Source: Selaginella tamariscina
Lineage: Eukaryota; Streptophyta; Lycopodiopsida; Selaginellales; Selaginellaceae
Assembly (NCBI GenBank): GCA_003024785.1
Contig: PUQB01000764.1
Coordinates: 39,419 to 103,418, forward strand
Reading direction: 5' to 3'
DNA: 64,000 nt
The first letter of the stretch is position 1. Every line of letters starts with the position of its first letter. The position numbers and the translations under genes were made by a program. The notes under the pieces are model-generated. The model ran no database searches and was not told where the DNA came from. It saw only the letters and a program-made list of their open reading frames with translations. Positions 55,640 to 64,000 of this stretch are shown here, piece by piece.

Positions 55640-57658
55640 TTAATGCGCTATTAATTCGAGTACATGTATCTGACAGTTTTATTTAACTTTGGGTGAGAGA
55701 TATCCATTTTGATGAATTAAAATTGCATAATGTAATCAGTGATGCATAATATGGTTAATCTATATTTAATAGTATGCATTTATGATAAATTTTATACCAT
55801 GTACATTTATTTTATGTTAGTATTGTTTAACATTAATATAAATTACAATACTTTTCATATAATTCCAATGTTATGTTTAAAATGTATGTATATACAATGC
55901 TAAACAAAATTGGAATTTTTATTTAATTTTTTGATAAAAAAAATGAACCCTAAACCTTAAACACTTTTCCAATTTAAAACATACTTTATGTGTATATGCA
56001 TCTACATACGTTGATATATAAATCAATGTCAATATGGATGTTATATTATTGTTATTTAGAACTGGTAACGTTAAATATTTTTGTTATATATGTGTGTGTA
56101 AATATGTTCATTATTAACAAAGCTTGTCATTAATGTTAATCATTTAATAAATGTGTAACACATGCTAGGGTTCTTTACTTGTTTATATATATATATATTA
56201 CTAATCTTGAATGTTATTTAACATTTGTTTAACAGTGTTAATATTTCTTTTTAGTAAAATATTGTTAGGGATTAAGAATTTCACACACAAATAAGAATAA
56301 ATGATATGGTCAACACCAATTCATGGAATAATCATAAATTACATATATATGAATGACATAAGGATGCATTGAGTTTAAAAAATGCTAAATTCACGAGAAA
56401 ATCATAAAATATTATTATGAATTCTCCAAGTAGTAACGTAACACACAACACCATTCACCAAAGCATGATATGATTAAAGATATAATAATGAATATGGATA
56501 TCTACTCTTTATTTCATCATTCATATTCATTTTTCATTACTATTATTAAAGTTTTAACTAAAAATGTTAACACATGGTAACATGTGATTTTTAAGTGGCT
56601 ATCAAGTGTCTGAGCAAAACTAAGTTTTTTAAAACAATTCACTTAAGTGGTCATTCGGTGTTTGAGCAATACTAAGTTTTTAAAAACAACCTAACTAAGA
56701 TGTTAAAGTAAACATAAGACTTAGGGTTTTATTTTAAATCTTTTATCCATTAATAATCCAAATAAACTTTAGAATTTTATTTTAGAAAATTTAAACAAAC
56801 CCATACCGTAACCCCGTTAAAGAAAATCATCCTTAATTCTTATAAGGTAACAAGGGGTATCATGAATCACGATTAACTCTTAAGGATTTGAGTGGCCAAA
56901 TTATATCTTATACATTTTAAATATTATATTTCTTTATAACAAACCAGTCTCATCCATACCATACTTTGTTACAATCTACATAATGGTATTATAAGTTGTG
57001 GAACTCCCGATGTACTGTACAACAGGTGGGATACTGTTGTCACGTCTTCATACCACATTTACTGCATACACGCATAAATATAGTATGCTATAATATACAG
57101 TACTACGTACATATTTCCCATAGTTATATAAAAGAGTTATAAATATTTTCATTAAATTTGTTAGTGAAAACTACAATTCTATTATGTAAAAACTTTTTGC
57201 AAATGATGAAACTATTAGAATCATTGATGAATTGGGCCAAGATTTTATGAGGCTAATCAATCTAAAGAGCAATCGTTTTGCAAAGTTTGAAAGCCTTTTT
57301 TAAGGTCTTTATGTGTGTATTATAAGGTCAGAGATAGATGTGTATGTGTGCGTCATGGTGTATTTTGATATATAGACAGACAAATTTATGTACCGAATGT
57401 GTGTATATATATAATAACAATAGATACTTATGCATAAAATGTTTATATATAATTTACTATATTTTAATGCTTCTTCTCAGTAATGGATATACGACGTTAT
57501 ATGTCACATATACTTATGTGTTATACAAGGAATAAAGATGGACTCAAACCTATGGAGTATGTAATGTACGTTTGGTTTATATTATATGTTTTAAAATACA
57601 TATGTTTTATGTGTGGAAATATAATATAGAAAGTTTATACAAAAACTTGTTAATAAAT
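55640..57658. other. AT-rich intergenic DNA
   Basis: No gene seen; short TA runs only. Confidence 0.5.
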
Positions 57659-57731
57659 GGGGGTGTAGCTCAGATGGTAGAGCGATCGCTTCGCATGCGA
57701 TAGGTAAGGGGATCGATGCCCCTCACCTCCA
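57659..57731 (+). tRNA. tRNA-Ala (anticodon CGC)
   Basis: Full cloverleaf of 73 bases. Acceptor GGGGGTG pairs with CACCTCC plus discriminator A. The D arm is GCTC/GAGC. The anticodon arm is ATCGC-TTCGCAT-GCGAT with anticodon CGC. The T arm is AGGGG/CCCCT. The G3-T70 pair (G3:U70 in the RNA) is the alanine identity element. The T loop reads ATCGATG, so the nearly invariant T54 is A and the B box is GGATCGATGCC instead of GGTTCGATTCC. There is no intron. It may be a weakly transcribed or decaying copy. Confidence 0.85.
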
Positions 57732-57769
57732 AAGCTATGAATTTGTCTGTATTCAGGTATCATATAGGA

Positions 57770-57813
57770 TACTTGAATATTCTTAATTAATTTAATTAGA
57801 AAGATACTTAATT

Positions 57814-57854
<41 letters not shown>

Positions 57855-58262
57855 CGTAATTAATTTTTTTATCAATTTATTTATAAGAAAAGTACTTTAG
57901 AGTTATACATAGCTTGTTAATATTCCAAAACCATGTTTGAGAATATTTTAATTAGAAATATACTTAATTTGTTTATATATATATATATATAAACGTAATT
58001 GATTTTTTTAATCAATTTATTTATAAGAAAAGTACTTTAGAGTTATACATAGCTTGTTAATATTCCAAAACCATGTTTGAGAATATTCTTAATTAATTTA
58101 AATAGAAATATACTTAATTTGTTTATATATATATATATATATTATATATATTATATATAAAACGTAATTCATTTTTTTTATCAATTTATTTATAAGAAAA
58201 GTACTATTGAGTTATACATAGCTTGTTAATATTCCAAAACCATATCAAACATATTTCATATA
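57770..58262. repeat. Three tandem units of about 140-175 bp containing (TA)n
   Basis: Each unit runs AGAAA(G)ATACTTAATTTGT, (TA)n, AACGTAATT, then TTATTTATAAGAAAAGTACT, GAGTTATACATAGCTTGTTA and AATATTCCAAAACCAT. The units differ mainly in the length of the TA block, which is longest in the first and third. Confidence 0.85.
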
Positions 58263-58439
58263 CCAGTTATATTAATCATTTAACCTTTTTAATTAAATTA
58301 ATAATAGCAACATGTGATACTTAATTTGTATGTATATATATATATATATATATATTATAAGACTTCTTAAGGTACACGTGTACTTTATAGATAGATAAAT
58401 AGATAGATAGACATACACATACAAGTTAAGTATCGTGTC

Positions 58440-58590
58440 GTACTGGGTTTGACATTTCCTCGAGCGCAATTTGCCGAGCGTACGGATTTCCGTCATACCG
58501 GAATATTCCATTCCGTACAGAATATTCGTTTTCATATAAAGAATATTCTGGTGCGGCGGGCGGGCAATCATGGCGGCACGGTAATGTGTC
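58440..58590. other. GC-rich, palindrome-rich island
   Basis: Contains ACGGATTTCCGT, CCGGAATATTCCATTCCG, two further GAATATTC palindromes and a GGTGCGGCGGGCGGGC run in otherwise AT-rich DNA, 165 bp past the stop codon of the ParB-methylase gene. No open frame of note. Confidence 0.5.
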
Positions 58591-58752
58591 AAAGTTTCAC
58601 AAATTTGGGGGTTAATCTGACATATATATTTATATATTTATATTTATATTTATGTTTTTATTTTTTTAATATTTATATTTATAACTATAATTATATTTTT
58701 ATATAAATACCGCATCAAACTAAATAAAAATTACAATAAAAACATAACTCAA

Positions 58753-61700
58753 TCATGAAGACTCGTTTCCACCAGCCAGTGCCTCGTCGTTAATGAATGC
58801 ATTGTTACGGTGTCGTGAACGTTTCTCCAAAATCTGTCTGTCGTAAACTTCGAACTCTTCAACCATTTTCTTTGCCATCTGATTAGCGTAGTCTGGTAGA
58901 ACAATACTGAAAACATATTAAAGTTTAAAACCAAAGAAATGATAAAACAAATCTCACTCATCATCTGATGACTCGTATGATCTCTCTTCTGCTGACTCAT
59001 CTGATGACTCGTCGTTGTGCTCCACGGACTTCTCCGTAACAACATCCTTGTCGTTTCGAGAAGGCGGATCCTGGTCTCCATCGTTGTCGCTAGCCAAAGG
59101 CAAATCCTGTGCTTCTGTTTCCATGGCCCTCTTCCACTCATCAAAAGGAGTAATCATGGAAACAACTTGATCATCCCCACCACCTTCAGCTGCTGTAACA
59201 CTTGGAATGACCTTCCTGAAGACATCTCTGGCTGCTAAAACCAGATCCTTGTTGATGTCGATTCCATAACCATGTCTCCCTGTGTGAAAAGCTGCAAGAA
59301 TACTAGCACCGGTTCCCACTGTTAGATCCACAACAGTTCCACCAGGCTTTGTGAGCTTCTCCACTAGCATCGCAAACAACTTGGGAGATTTCGGGCCAAT
59401 TGAAATCCTGAAAGTTACAATATTAGAACATGAGAAATAACAAACAACATTATACCATGGGAGCTGGAAATCTTCTGGCTCATCAAAAAGAAGAGTGTAG
59501 CGAGTGTCCAAGATCTCCTTGTTCTTGGCAACCTTAGAGTAGGGGGAACCAAAAATACACATGGCAATGATGCTTTCCTGAAAAAATAAACATTAAAAAA
59601 TGACATTCTCAAAAAGAAGAATTACCTTTCTAGAGAAACGGTATCCCCATGACTTTGTCGTGTGCACATAACTCATCTGCAGAAACTTTAGCTTGCAAGT
59701 TTTGCAGTGTTCTTCAAAGCTAGAACATCATCCGGTAGCACAAAACTACCACATGGCCAGCTCTGTCTAATATCCCGAAAGCAAGGTTCACCAAGTTCTT
59801 CAGCAAAGCATCCGAGAACTTCGTGTATTGATCCACCATCCCGCCTGCCTCAGCAACGCATCCGGTAGGCGGGTCGATGACAACGAGATCAACAGCTCCC
59901 TGGATGCATTTTGGTGGAGGCTTCGCACCAAACACATGAATAGTCCAACTTGACTTGTGACTCACGATCCAATCCTCAAGCTCCTTCAATCCTGACGGAA
60001 AAGGCCTTCCGGCTTTGAAGTACTGGACTGCAAGGTTCTCTGAATCTGCATGAATGATTTCCCAGCTTCCATTTCCCTTCTCAGGCATCACCATCCTCAA
60101 CATATCATCTTCTTCCAATCCAGCCGAGATGAAGGATGGGGCTGAAGAAGAAGCTTGTCCCTTGCTGACCTTGCTCGCCGATCTAGCATACCTGATATCC
60201 ATCTTCACATGGAGCTTCCTTGCAGCATTGTCGTTCTTCCATAATAGCTCTCGCCGATCATCCTTGTGTATCTTATAGCTGGCCATCTCCCATTCGGGAC
60301 AGTCACCAGGAAGGAAATCCAGCCAGAAAGGACAGTGTTCCACTTCGTAATCACTGATATCACGTAACAACCGGCTCCACATGCTAGAATCCTTGGTAAC
60401 ATCCATCCACTCTTTGAAATCTTCAGGGAGTGCATCGTTCTTCCATTTTTTTTAAAAATCTGTAAAGAAACAAAAAAAAAACTTGCCTGAATGCCATTCT
60501 TTTTGCAGATTTTTCCAGCTCAAATAGTCGAGGAGGTGGAATTGTCGCACCGAACTCCTTGTTCTCGAGCATGTTCTGGTACATATCCAACTTAATTTCA
60601 TTGTGCATCTTCATATACCATGTCATGAACTCCTCTACATGCTCGACCAAAAGCTCTTTAGCTGCCTCCGCGACCTGGCACGATAAAACGAATAAAAATG
60701 AAAAATATAAATATTAAATTACCTGGAACCAGTAAGTAAAGATGTGCAAAAACTTGATGAAGTCCTTGTCAGGCCAGCCGGTGACACCTTCCTTCTTGTC
60801 TTTCTCCGTCATGTTCACCAGCTTCTCAAGAACGCCACGTTCTTGAATGTGCACAAGCTTTCCAAGGATATCAACCTTGACGTTGGAAGGAAGCTGGGAC
60901 TTCGCGAGCATTTGAAGCTTCTCCAGAGTTATTTGCTTCGTTGATGGTTTGATAGTGATATCTGTGATCGCCTTGAACCAATCTTCACCGACCGCCGGAT
61001 CAGCAATGGTGAGGAATTTGTTCATCCGAACTGTGAATGTCTTGTAAACGCTGGAGAGGATCTGAGATTCTGTCTGGTTTGGTTTTCTGTTCGCAAGTTT
61101 TGTAGCGATTTGTCGCTTCAGTTGATTCTGCAAAAGAAACCGAAAATCAAAAAACAGTCAAAAGAAGAAGAAAAGATTACCTCCCAAAAAATCTTCACCA
61201 ATGTCGTCTTTGGATACTCGTACCAAACGTCTTCTTTTCTGTTCGATCTCCACACTTCCACAGCTTTTCTATCTTCCTCCGGCATCCCGCGAAGAACATG
61301 ATCGGTAGAAAGATCTGCAGACTTCACACAACAATTCCGTAAGAACTGCAAGGTGTGAATGATTGTTGTAGGAACCACACGAGCAGTTGCTCTGCAAAAC
61401 AAAACAACATTTATTTAGTATTTAAATAATGAAACAAACAAGTCACTTACTCATTCAACCGATTGCAAGCAGCGATTAGTCTCTTCTCCTCTTGCACTGT
61501 GGATGCTATGAGTGTTGCACGTACACGCAAAGTCCATTTCAAACCTGGCTCTTCAGCAAGCAAAGTGTTCAAAGCAACCCGACGATGATTCCCATCCCAC
61601 ACCAGAAACTTTGCATCTTTCAGAAATCGATACCATGCAGAAAATGCTGGCTTATGCAAATCCGCTTCAAACTCTCTATCGACCTGTGCTTCTGACTCAT

Positions 61701-62367
61701 TCCAACTTCGGCGTTCGTCTGCACTCAGCTGTGGTCCGAAAGATAAGGTGAACACTGACGTCTCCTGGTAAAATCCTTCAGCTCTAATCCATCCAACAAG
61801 GTCTTTCACGCCGTCCTTAGTGACATTCCTCAAACGTTGGTGTGGGAGCAACCTGTGAACCGGGATACGCGGAGGCTCACCAAGCTCAACTGGAACGTAG
61901 TGGTCTCGTCCTTGTAGCGATGTGTCAATATCTGTGTCATACCGAATAACAAGATCCCGAAGAAGCTTGGATGGAGCCTCAAGTGTCAGCCGCTCCGGAA
62001 TTGCATATGATTCGGCAACATCCTCAGGAGCATCCAGTTTCCTCTTCTTATTGAACATTTTACTACCAAGATCAATATCCGGTACTTCCTCTGCATTACC
62101 GTGTTCTGCAGAGCTTCCTGCAATCTCCCTATTTCTAGGCATCCATTCACTCACCACAGTATGTTCATCAATGACTTGCGAACTATCCACAGGTTCATTG
62201 TTCGTCGGCATCATCTCTTTGTGTTGCAGTTGTTGCTTGGCGCCTCGGCCTCCTTTCTTGCCACGAGGTTTTGGAGCCATATCTGCAAGAGCTTCTTGGA
62301 CGATATGTTCTTGAAGTGTCAAAGTCTTGTATTTATCTCGTAGTCTCTTACTCTGCCTTTGTCTCAT
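58753..62367 (-). CDS. ParB-like domain plus N4/N6-type DNA methylase-fold protein
   Basis: Eight exons: 62367-61451, 61391-61181, 61127-60723, 60674-60483 (end unsure), 60459-59626, 59577-59456, 59407-58958 and 58906-58753. Exon 1 has a basic N-terminus (KPRGKKGGRG, KKRKL) and then a ParB/sulfiredoxin-like domain: PVHRLLPHQRLRNVTKDGV and FLVWDGNHRRVALNTLL, where ParB proteins have 'GxRRxxA'. Exons 2-4 are helical and unrecognised. Exon 5 has VDLVVIDPPTGC (motif IV position, DPPT instead of DPPY/F/W). Exons 6-7 have TLLFDEPEDFQLPW and VVDLTVGTGASILAA (motif I, replacing 'DPFxGSGT'). Motif IV before motif I is the beta order of PF01555. The C-terminus is acidic and Ser-rich. Breaks near 59743, 59691 and 60450 restore about 1095 residues. 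The ATG follows an acceptor, so a 5' UTR intron is likely. Nuclear DNA binding or modification is inferred. Confidence 0.62.
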
Positions 62368-62702
62368 TCTGCAATTACAACAACTGATAAGTGTGTGTGT
62401 GTGAGTTGTTTTAATTTATGGACACACATTTACTATATATGTATACCTATCAATATATATAGACACACACGCACACACACACATATTTATACGTGTAATG
62501 TTGTTTGTGTGTGTGCTCACTATATAATGTTCCTTGTGTATGTGTGTAATGTTGATTATGTGTGTGTGTGTGCAATGTTGTTTGTGTTTTGTGATGTGTC
62601 TGTGTGAGAGAATATGGGTATATTCATATCTCTTCACATGTATATACAGACGAAAAAGCATCATCTCATATATACAAGTCTTAAATTCATATACTTATAC
62701 AT

Positions 62703-62735
<33 letters not shown>

Positions 62736-63110
62736 ATATATATATATAAGTCTTTTTAAGTATGTATTTAAATATATATTTATATATACACACACACATG
62801 TATACAAGTCTAATGTTGTATAATCATACGTGTGTAAAATGTTATTTATGTGTGTGCGCAAAACACACACACACACACACACCACACACACACGGATTTC
62901 CTGCCCGAATTGGCAGGAAATGTGTGTGTGTGTGTGTGTGTGTGTTTGCCGAAATCGGCAATAACTCATGCGTCGGAGGTGTGTGTGTGTGTGCACACGC
63001 GCGTGCGTTTGTGAATACAAAGAAATCCTACTGAATTTGCACATACATTCACAGAAATTACTATACACATATATAAGATTTTACCTGTAGCCATGTCGCC
63101 GTGACGCTCA
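62368..63110 (-). promoter_or_regulatory. 5' UTR intron and leader of the ParB-methylase gene
   Basis: An acceptor (TTGCAG) sits one base before the ATG at 62367. A donor-like GTAAAATC near 63084 follows a GC-rich short leader. Joining the two gives ATGGCTACAG then AATGA, which stops, so the upstream ATG is probably not used or is a very short upstream frame. The intron is packed with (CA)n, (GT)n and (TA)n. Confidence 0.4.
62858..62965. repeat. Inverted repeats with CA and GT arms
   Basis: (CA)n, then ATTTCCTGCC, a short loop CGAATT, GGCAGGAAAT, then (GT)n: the two microsatellites are reverse complements, so the whole could fold as one long hairpin. A second perfect hairpin TTGCCGAAATCGGCAA follows at once. 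Confidence 0.8.
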
Positions 63111-63770
63111 CACTAGCCTCTTGTCGCCGCAAAAAAAAGAACAAAAGTGCCCTCTCTCAACAATGGAGAATGGAGAAGAAGAATGGGTAGTCCTGAACCT
63201 TTACCCTAAAATCTAACACTTAACCCTTTGACCCTTAACTATAAAACTGTGTTTAATTAAACCATACAACAGTATATATAATACTTACGATAAATAACAT
63301 ACTATATAAAAGGATACAAATACAAACACATATTTAAGTAAAAATTTGTATGTTAAAAAAACATATTATTATATAATTAAATAAATATTCGTGTAAAAAT
63401 ATGTATTTATAATTGACAATTGGTAGCGGAGCAAGTATTAATCAACATCTACATTTGATAAAATACTGGATCAAATAACTATATAATTATAATAAATAAA
63501 TTAACAGAATATAAACAAGTCATAAATAAATATGTCAGATGAATGTAGATTAGACACACATTTATTTAAAAGACAATAAAGATTGCTCTATCTCTACGTG
63601 AAGTGCTATACTATATTAGCATCTAAGATCTATACGTTTCCTTGAATTAAATATTCGCCCACGTTGAGTCATGATTGTGAATTTTTGAAATGGTAATATC
63701 CGATATTTACCAAAAGATGATTAAGTAATGCTGTTGTTTTTCTGTCACGTTTGTGGTAACTGCTTGCAAA
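63111..63770. other. Spacer between divergent genes
   Basis: AT-rich. Near 63203-63235 there are TTTACCCTAAAATCTAACAC and TTAACCCTTTGACCC, telo-box-like motifs that could serve the leftward gene. No gene. Confidence 0.45.
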
Positions 63771-64000
63771 ATGGCCAGGATTGTTTACGGCAATTTGGAT
63801 CACGATGTTCCTGTGATAGATGGTGTTGGAATCATTCTTACTAATCAGATTAGAACGTTCTTTGGCATTTTTGATTGGCAAAGTGTTCGTCTTTTTAAAC
63901 TTCTTCATGGGCAATCTGCTTTACAGATCGAAATAAACGAGGACCAAGATGCTGGAGGGAAGGATAATCCAGGATATGTTTTGTTACCGGATGAAGGACC
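63771..64000 (+). CDS. Start of an unknown protein, open at the window end
   Basis: ATG at 63771 (context GCAAAATGGCC) opens a frame of 76 codons without a stop up to the window edge. It begins MARIVYGNLDHDVPVIDGVG and continues IILTNQIRTFFGIFDWQ and SALQIEINEDQD. Codon use and residue mix are protein-like. I do not recognise it. It is divergent from the ParB-methylase gene across about 660 bp. No intron is seen so far. Confidence 0.5.
   Translation, partial: MARIVYGNLDHDVPVIDGVGIILTNQIRTFFGIFDWQSVRLFKLLHGQSALQIEINEDQDAGGKDNPGYVLLPDEG

Follow-up and report, generated by a model that had tools for sequence, protein, structure and literature searches.

A putative ParB-methylase-like gene with changed methylase motifs in a Selaginella tamariscina contig

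In this report, we describe a multi-exon gene on the minus strand (62367..58753) of a 64,000-nucleotide stretch of the lycophyte Selaginella tamariscina (contig PUQB01000764.1), which we call the window and whose positions are used throughout. Our main finding is that the predicted product carries, with certainty as far as homology can tell, the S-adenosylmethionine (AdoMet)-binding part, or motif I, of an N6_N4 DNA methylase, and that a ParB/sulfiredoxin (Srx)-like domain probably precedes it, as judged from sequence and a structural model. The reading that we favour, in a judgment that is evenly balanced, is that the gene is a member of the ParB-methylase class known from algal transposons, in which the methylase is probably altered or dead.

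Homology of the motif I part is firm. The Pfam family N6_N4_Mtase (PF01555) scored 32.8 bits against the whole spliced protein, with an expect value (E) of 8.5e-8 and a curated cut-off of 26.7, and its best stretch, residues 868-921, corresponded to positions 165-218 of the 221 in the profile. This stretch lies in exon 8 (58958..59407), which also encodes an acidic tail, and the predicted AdoMet-binding loop, DLTVGTG, is at 59308..59328. The phrog_67 family matched the whole protein in a single stretch (residues 691-1005, 40.5 bits, E 3.7e-10); with the domain cut out, both matches shrank to the motif I part, at 34.5 bits for phrog_67 and 27.7 bits (E 3.1e-6) for PF01555. Against a ParB-methylase profile, the motif I part reached 17.2 bits, as high as none of 3000 shuffles, with an hhalign probability of 90, and the whole protein 13.3 bits (0/1000 shuffles as high), only motif I being aligned. 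The initial annotation of this DNA had proposed a methylase of the N6_N4 family, which the PF01555 and phrog_67 matches uphold, the former having passed its cut-off. Within exon 7 (59456..59577), hhalign placed FDEPEDF (59467-59487) opposite a segment with the pattern F-D-x-P in the ParB-methylase profile.

Ahead of motif I in the protein, DPPT (59864..59875) is probably motif IV, because of its place, its context VDLVVIDPP, and its MAFFT alignment with a protein of Vibrio phage D81. It is encoded by exon 5 (59750..60439), which the phrog_67 alignment marks as the first part of the methylase region. The catalytic motif of such enzymes is (D/N/S)PP(Y/F/W), a rule from which DPPT departs. With the D81 protein as the single query, more than 600 viral and 156 bacterial-genome loci were obtained, and we compared the motifs with those of the 80 best loci from each group. 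Open reading frames were filtered on length, on the patterns [DNS]PP[YFWT] and GxG[ST], and on word similarity to D81, so that 157 of the 160 loci were kept and three dropped; together with D81, the 157 frames formed 47 clusters at 75% identity, a sample that the one query and the filter make narrow. DPPY was present in all 47 clusters, though any of Y, F, W and T at its last place would have passed the filter. HPTxKP was equally constant (47/47), and here SIGPKS stands in place of HPTMKP, with only the K kept. Motif I of the clusters begins with D (47/47), followed by L (19), S (14) or P (7), and then by F (46/47); the Selaginella protein, with DLTVGTGAS, keeps the D and the GxG and has T at the place of the F, so that the glycine loop is retained despite the changes elsewhere. 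At the level of sequence, these motif changes are established. A deviation of both catalytic motifs had been claimed initially; this is borne out for DPPT and for the T of motif I, and not for the L after D, which is the commonest residue there. The likening to phage ParB-methylases was apt, as the D81 protein, of 415 amino acids, is of that build.

The putative ParB/Srx-like domain is encoded, after a basic N-terminus with a KKRK motif (62038-62049), by exon 1 (61451..62367), an open frame that ends on a GTAAGT donor. A motif, shuffles and a model argue for this domain. The motif is DGNHRR (61579..61596), a candidate for the ParB P-motif, GxxR, of which the ParB-methylase clusters have the G in 47 of 47 and the R in 45 of 47. 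It was aligned to AGHGR, and in a model built on a ParB alignment GxxR falls between a strand (144-147) and a helix (151-163); the resemblance of this exon 1 model to ParB/Srx structures is partly circular. Depending on the profile, the score of the region was reached by 11/2000, 42/5000, 167/3000 or 509/5000 shuffles (0.5% to 10%), and in the 167/3000 test it was the methylase portion of the profile that gave the best alignment. When a loop was removed from the ParB core, a choice made post hoc from the alignment, none of 5000 shuffles scored as high with a phage ParB profile, 6/5000 did so with a combined profile, and 238/5000 with a profile of ParB-methylases only. DndB (PF14072) matched residues 250-303, around DGNHRR, with E 0.005, below its cut-off.

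The gene model consists of nine open exons separated by eight short, T-rich GT-AG introns, and the spliced coding sequence has 1063 codons and a stop, with no internal stop. The gene announced initially is thus confirmed, with nine exons in place of eight. GNHRRVAL (with DGNHRR at residues 258-263), DPPT (764-767) and DLTVGTGAS (from 890) were all found in the spliced sequence, in the order claimed. Exon 2 (61181..61391), exon 3 (60723..61127), which forms a spacer, and exon 6 (59626..59676) have GT-AG borders, and exon 9 (58753..58906), with the stop codon, follows a GT-AG intron at 58907-58957. By inspection, six of the eight introns look ordinary, the exceptions being introns 4 and 5. Intron 4 (60440..60482, 43 nucleotides) contains runs of T10 and A8, has a GTTTTT donor, and its acceptor, in AAAAATGGAAG, is without a pyrimidine tract; a better-looking GC donor at 60486 would leave an intron of 27 nucleotides and the wrong frame, so that the 3' border of exon 4 (60483..60674) is doubtful. 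Intron 5 (59677..59749, 73 nucleotides) has a GC fraction of 0.41, compared with 0.19-0.30 in five other introns measured, a set without introns 7 and 8. Codon statistics of the gene itself make PDDVLALKNTAKL, inside intron 5, coding-like in a frame that differs from that of exon 5, and its position is, we presume, that of a strand and a helix of beta-class methylases. Two possibilities follow: an intact gene in which introns 4 and 5 are unusual, or a gene with small indels. In the second case, 59677-59749 would be coding with two frame shifts, and a third would fall at the A8 run, close to where exon 5 begins. When 59677-59749 was read as coding, phrog_67 scored 35.1 bits; the score was 34.7 bits for an X control and 34.5 bits when the stretch was left out.

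Transposons of brown, green and red algae are reported to carry accessory proteins with these two domains (PMC12477816). One of them, from Sola1-1_Ec32 of Ectocarpus, joins a ParB-like domain to an N4/N6-methylase in 1104 amino acids, and is encoded opposite a transposase in a transposon of 21.5 kb (PMC12477816). By its description, it resembles the Selaginella protein in its eukaryotic genome, its length (1104 versus 1063 amino acids) and, if the probable ParB-like domain is counted, its two domains, whereas scans of 49-64 kb here brought up no transposase beside the gene. The ParB-N6_N4 methylases of phages and prophages have the ParB-like domain first, as the Selaginella protein probably does, motif IV before motif I, as would hold here if DPPT is motif IV, and often D-L in motif I; the Selaginella protein differs from them in being longer than, for example, D81, in having introns, a spacer and, within the ParB-like domain, some 40 inserted residues, and in its DPPT and its missing HPTxKP. 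In work on Paracoccus prophages, the ParB domain is reported as fused to 36 prophage methylases, and for phages the suggestion is cited that ParB-like proteins steer a modification apparatus to sites on the virus genome during packaging (PMC6536676). ParB-fold domains bind CTP, ATP or GTP, and the R of GxxR is required (PMC12704722). The N4CMT of bdelloid rotifers is likewise a PF01555 methylase that a eukaryote acquired from bacteria, but it carries a chromodomain, not ParB, and is reported to be active in E. coli (PMC8885841). DndB, similar around DGNHRR by the sub-cutoff match, is unlike our protein in that it has no methylase and belongs to DNA phosphorothioate systems (PMC10853773). Among titles and abstract openings of the open-licence literature, we found no ParB-methyltransferase protein of a land plant, which is a weak absence.

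On the reading that we favour, the gene would descend from a protein of the ParB-methylase type, most likely by way of the algal DNA-transposon class. Its N-terminal domain may bind DNA as a clamp gated by nucleoside triphosphates (NTPs), which would tether the methylase-like C-terminal domain to DNA of the element that carries the gene. Catalysis has probably been lost or changed in this copy, because DPPT stands for motif IV, HPTxKP has disappeared, and the stretch whose frame is doubtful is where a core strand and helix would belong.

Several observations on the surroundings of the gene can be added. Downstream, a tRNA-Ala with anticodon CGC lies at 57658-57732 according to ARAGORN (57659-57731 with Rfam), and close beyond the gene's 3' end come A/T-rich direct repeats of about 140 bases (57775-58243), which could be small mobile elements, and a stretch, 58316-58434, that is about 75% palindromic. 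Upstream, where the window ends 1.6 kb from the start codon, a divergent open frame (MARIVYGNLDHDVPVIDGVG..., 63772-64000) leaves the window; it had no Pfam match, and could be a host gene or a partner gene of an element. A Utp12 match near 54.5 kb is sub-cutoff. Farther away are a reverse transcriptase (PF00078, 1910-2332, minus strand, E 1.7e-25), Ty3-like by reading only, a GH17 glycosyl hydrolase frame (PF00332, 36895-38205, plus strand, E 3.2e-27) and a MutS domain V exon (PF00488, 40464-40961, minus strand, E 1.7e-12). These three, together with a sub-cutoff F-box match in the window, suit a plant genome without proving it.

Other results weigh against membership in the algal-transposon class. 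Concerning the methylase, the long phrog_67 alignment did not recur when the domain was searched by itself, where only motif I was aligned, and because of this we placed our confidence at an even level and not slightly above it; the motif IV part, for its part, scored 0.8 bits against the ParB-methylase profile, a value matched by 17/3000 shuffles, and had an hhalign probability of 5. Concerning the ParB half, PF02195 was unmatched by the protein at E up to 10 with HMMER filters on, ParB-methylase profiles failed to separate the region from its shuffles in the 509/5000 and 167/3000 tests, and hhalign gave probabilities of 0.2 and 0.4. Among 272 open frames from the window, the phage ParB profile does not single out the exon 1 frame, which came second (1.7 bits) to an unrelated glycosyl-hydrolase frame (3.4 bits), and AlphaFold without relatives reached a mean predicted local distance difference test score (pLDDT) of 37.9, with no ParB among the 50 fold matches listed. 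The ParB domain put forward initially is probable from its motif, shuffles and model, and failed in the PF02195 check. As to the element, six-frame Pfam scans of 49-64 kb (E up to 0.01 and 0.05) found no transposase near the gene, although one broken by introns could escape them, and exact 12-base words shared between 56400-58752 and 62368-64000 revealed no terminal inverted repeat; left of 49 kb, 9 of the 24 listed open frames were scanned with Pfam, as was one frame at the right edge. No relative of the protein was found in a set of 5.8 billion proteins (three queries, one with E up to 1 and two with E up to 10) or in viral contigs (three queries); with tblastn against phages, one search was empty and the other gave one match at E 6, and plasmids gave two matches, at E 7 and E 10. 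No collection devoted to plant or algal genomes was among those searched, and the absence says little about plants.

The most serious competitor, to which we give appreciably less credit than to the favoured reading while recognizing that the two overlap, is that an otherwise ordinary transposon ParB-methylase is present as a pseudogene or was assembled with indels, the distinction being the broken frame. Three apparent frame problems speak for it, the first at the A8 run early in exon 5 and the others within 59677-59749, around PDDVLALKNTAKL, whereas a stop-free GT-AG model exists, and treating 59677-59749 as coding brought no gain in family score beyond the X control. Another view, which we consider unlikely, is that of a host gene, coding for a domesticated nuclear DNA-binding protein, possibly an AdoMet-sensing regulator with a dead methylase. 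The same stop-free model of 1063 codons and the KKRK motif would suit it, as would the lack of a transposase or terminal repeat nearby (in the 49-64 kb frames and the flanking 12-base words) and the presence of the tRNA-Ala and the sub-cutoff Utp12 match within about 4.3 kb; however, introns 4 and 5 are weak, and no sign of selection was seen, there being no ortholog for comparison.

Still less probable is an active methylase of altered type that would write N4-methylcytosine (4mC) or N6-methyladenine (6mA) on its own element or on the genome. Motif I does keep its D and GxG, and 4mC methylases of bacterial origin are mentioned for Marchantia (PMC8885841, PMC12344493), but the DPPY and HPTxKP found in every ParB-methylase cluster are changed here, and once intron 5 is removed the protein is without the stretch after GHV. 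The initial suggestion, of recruitment as a DNA-binding or regulatory protein or else of a shift in the enzyme's target, may hold; a decaying transposon gene fits equally well. The boldest version, a resident nuclear plant protein in which a phage-type ParB clamp and a catalytically changed methylase would form an NTP-gated, AdoMet-binding reader of DNA and not a writer, we regard as a long shot.

Membership in the algal-transposon class, our favoured reading, concerns a pair of domains already known from algal transposon proteins. In the literature considered, ParB-methylases come from bacteria, phages, prophages and algal transposons; to these sources the gene would add what looks like a plant genome, and a copy that has changed methylase motifs while keeping the domain order. 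Relatives from bryophytes, ferns or algae would tell selfish accessory genes from a takeover by the host.
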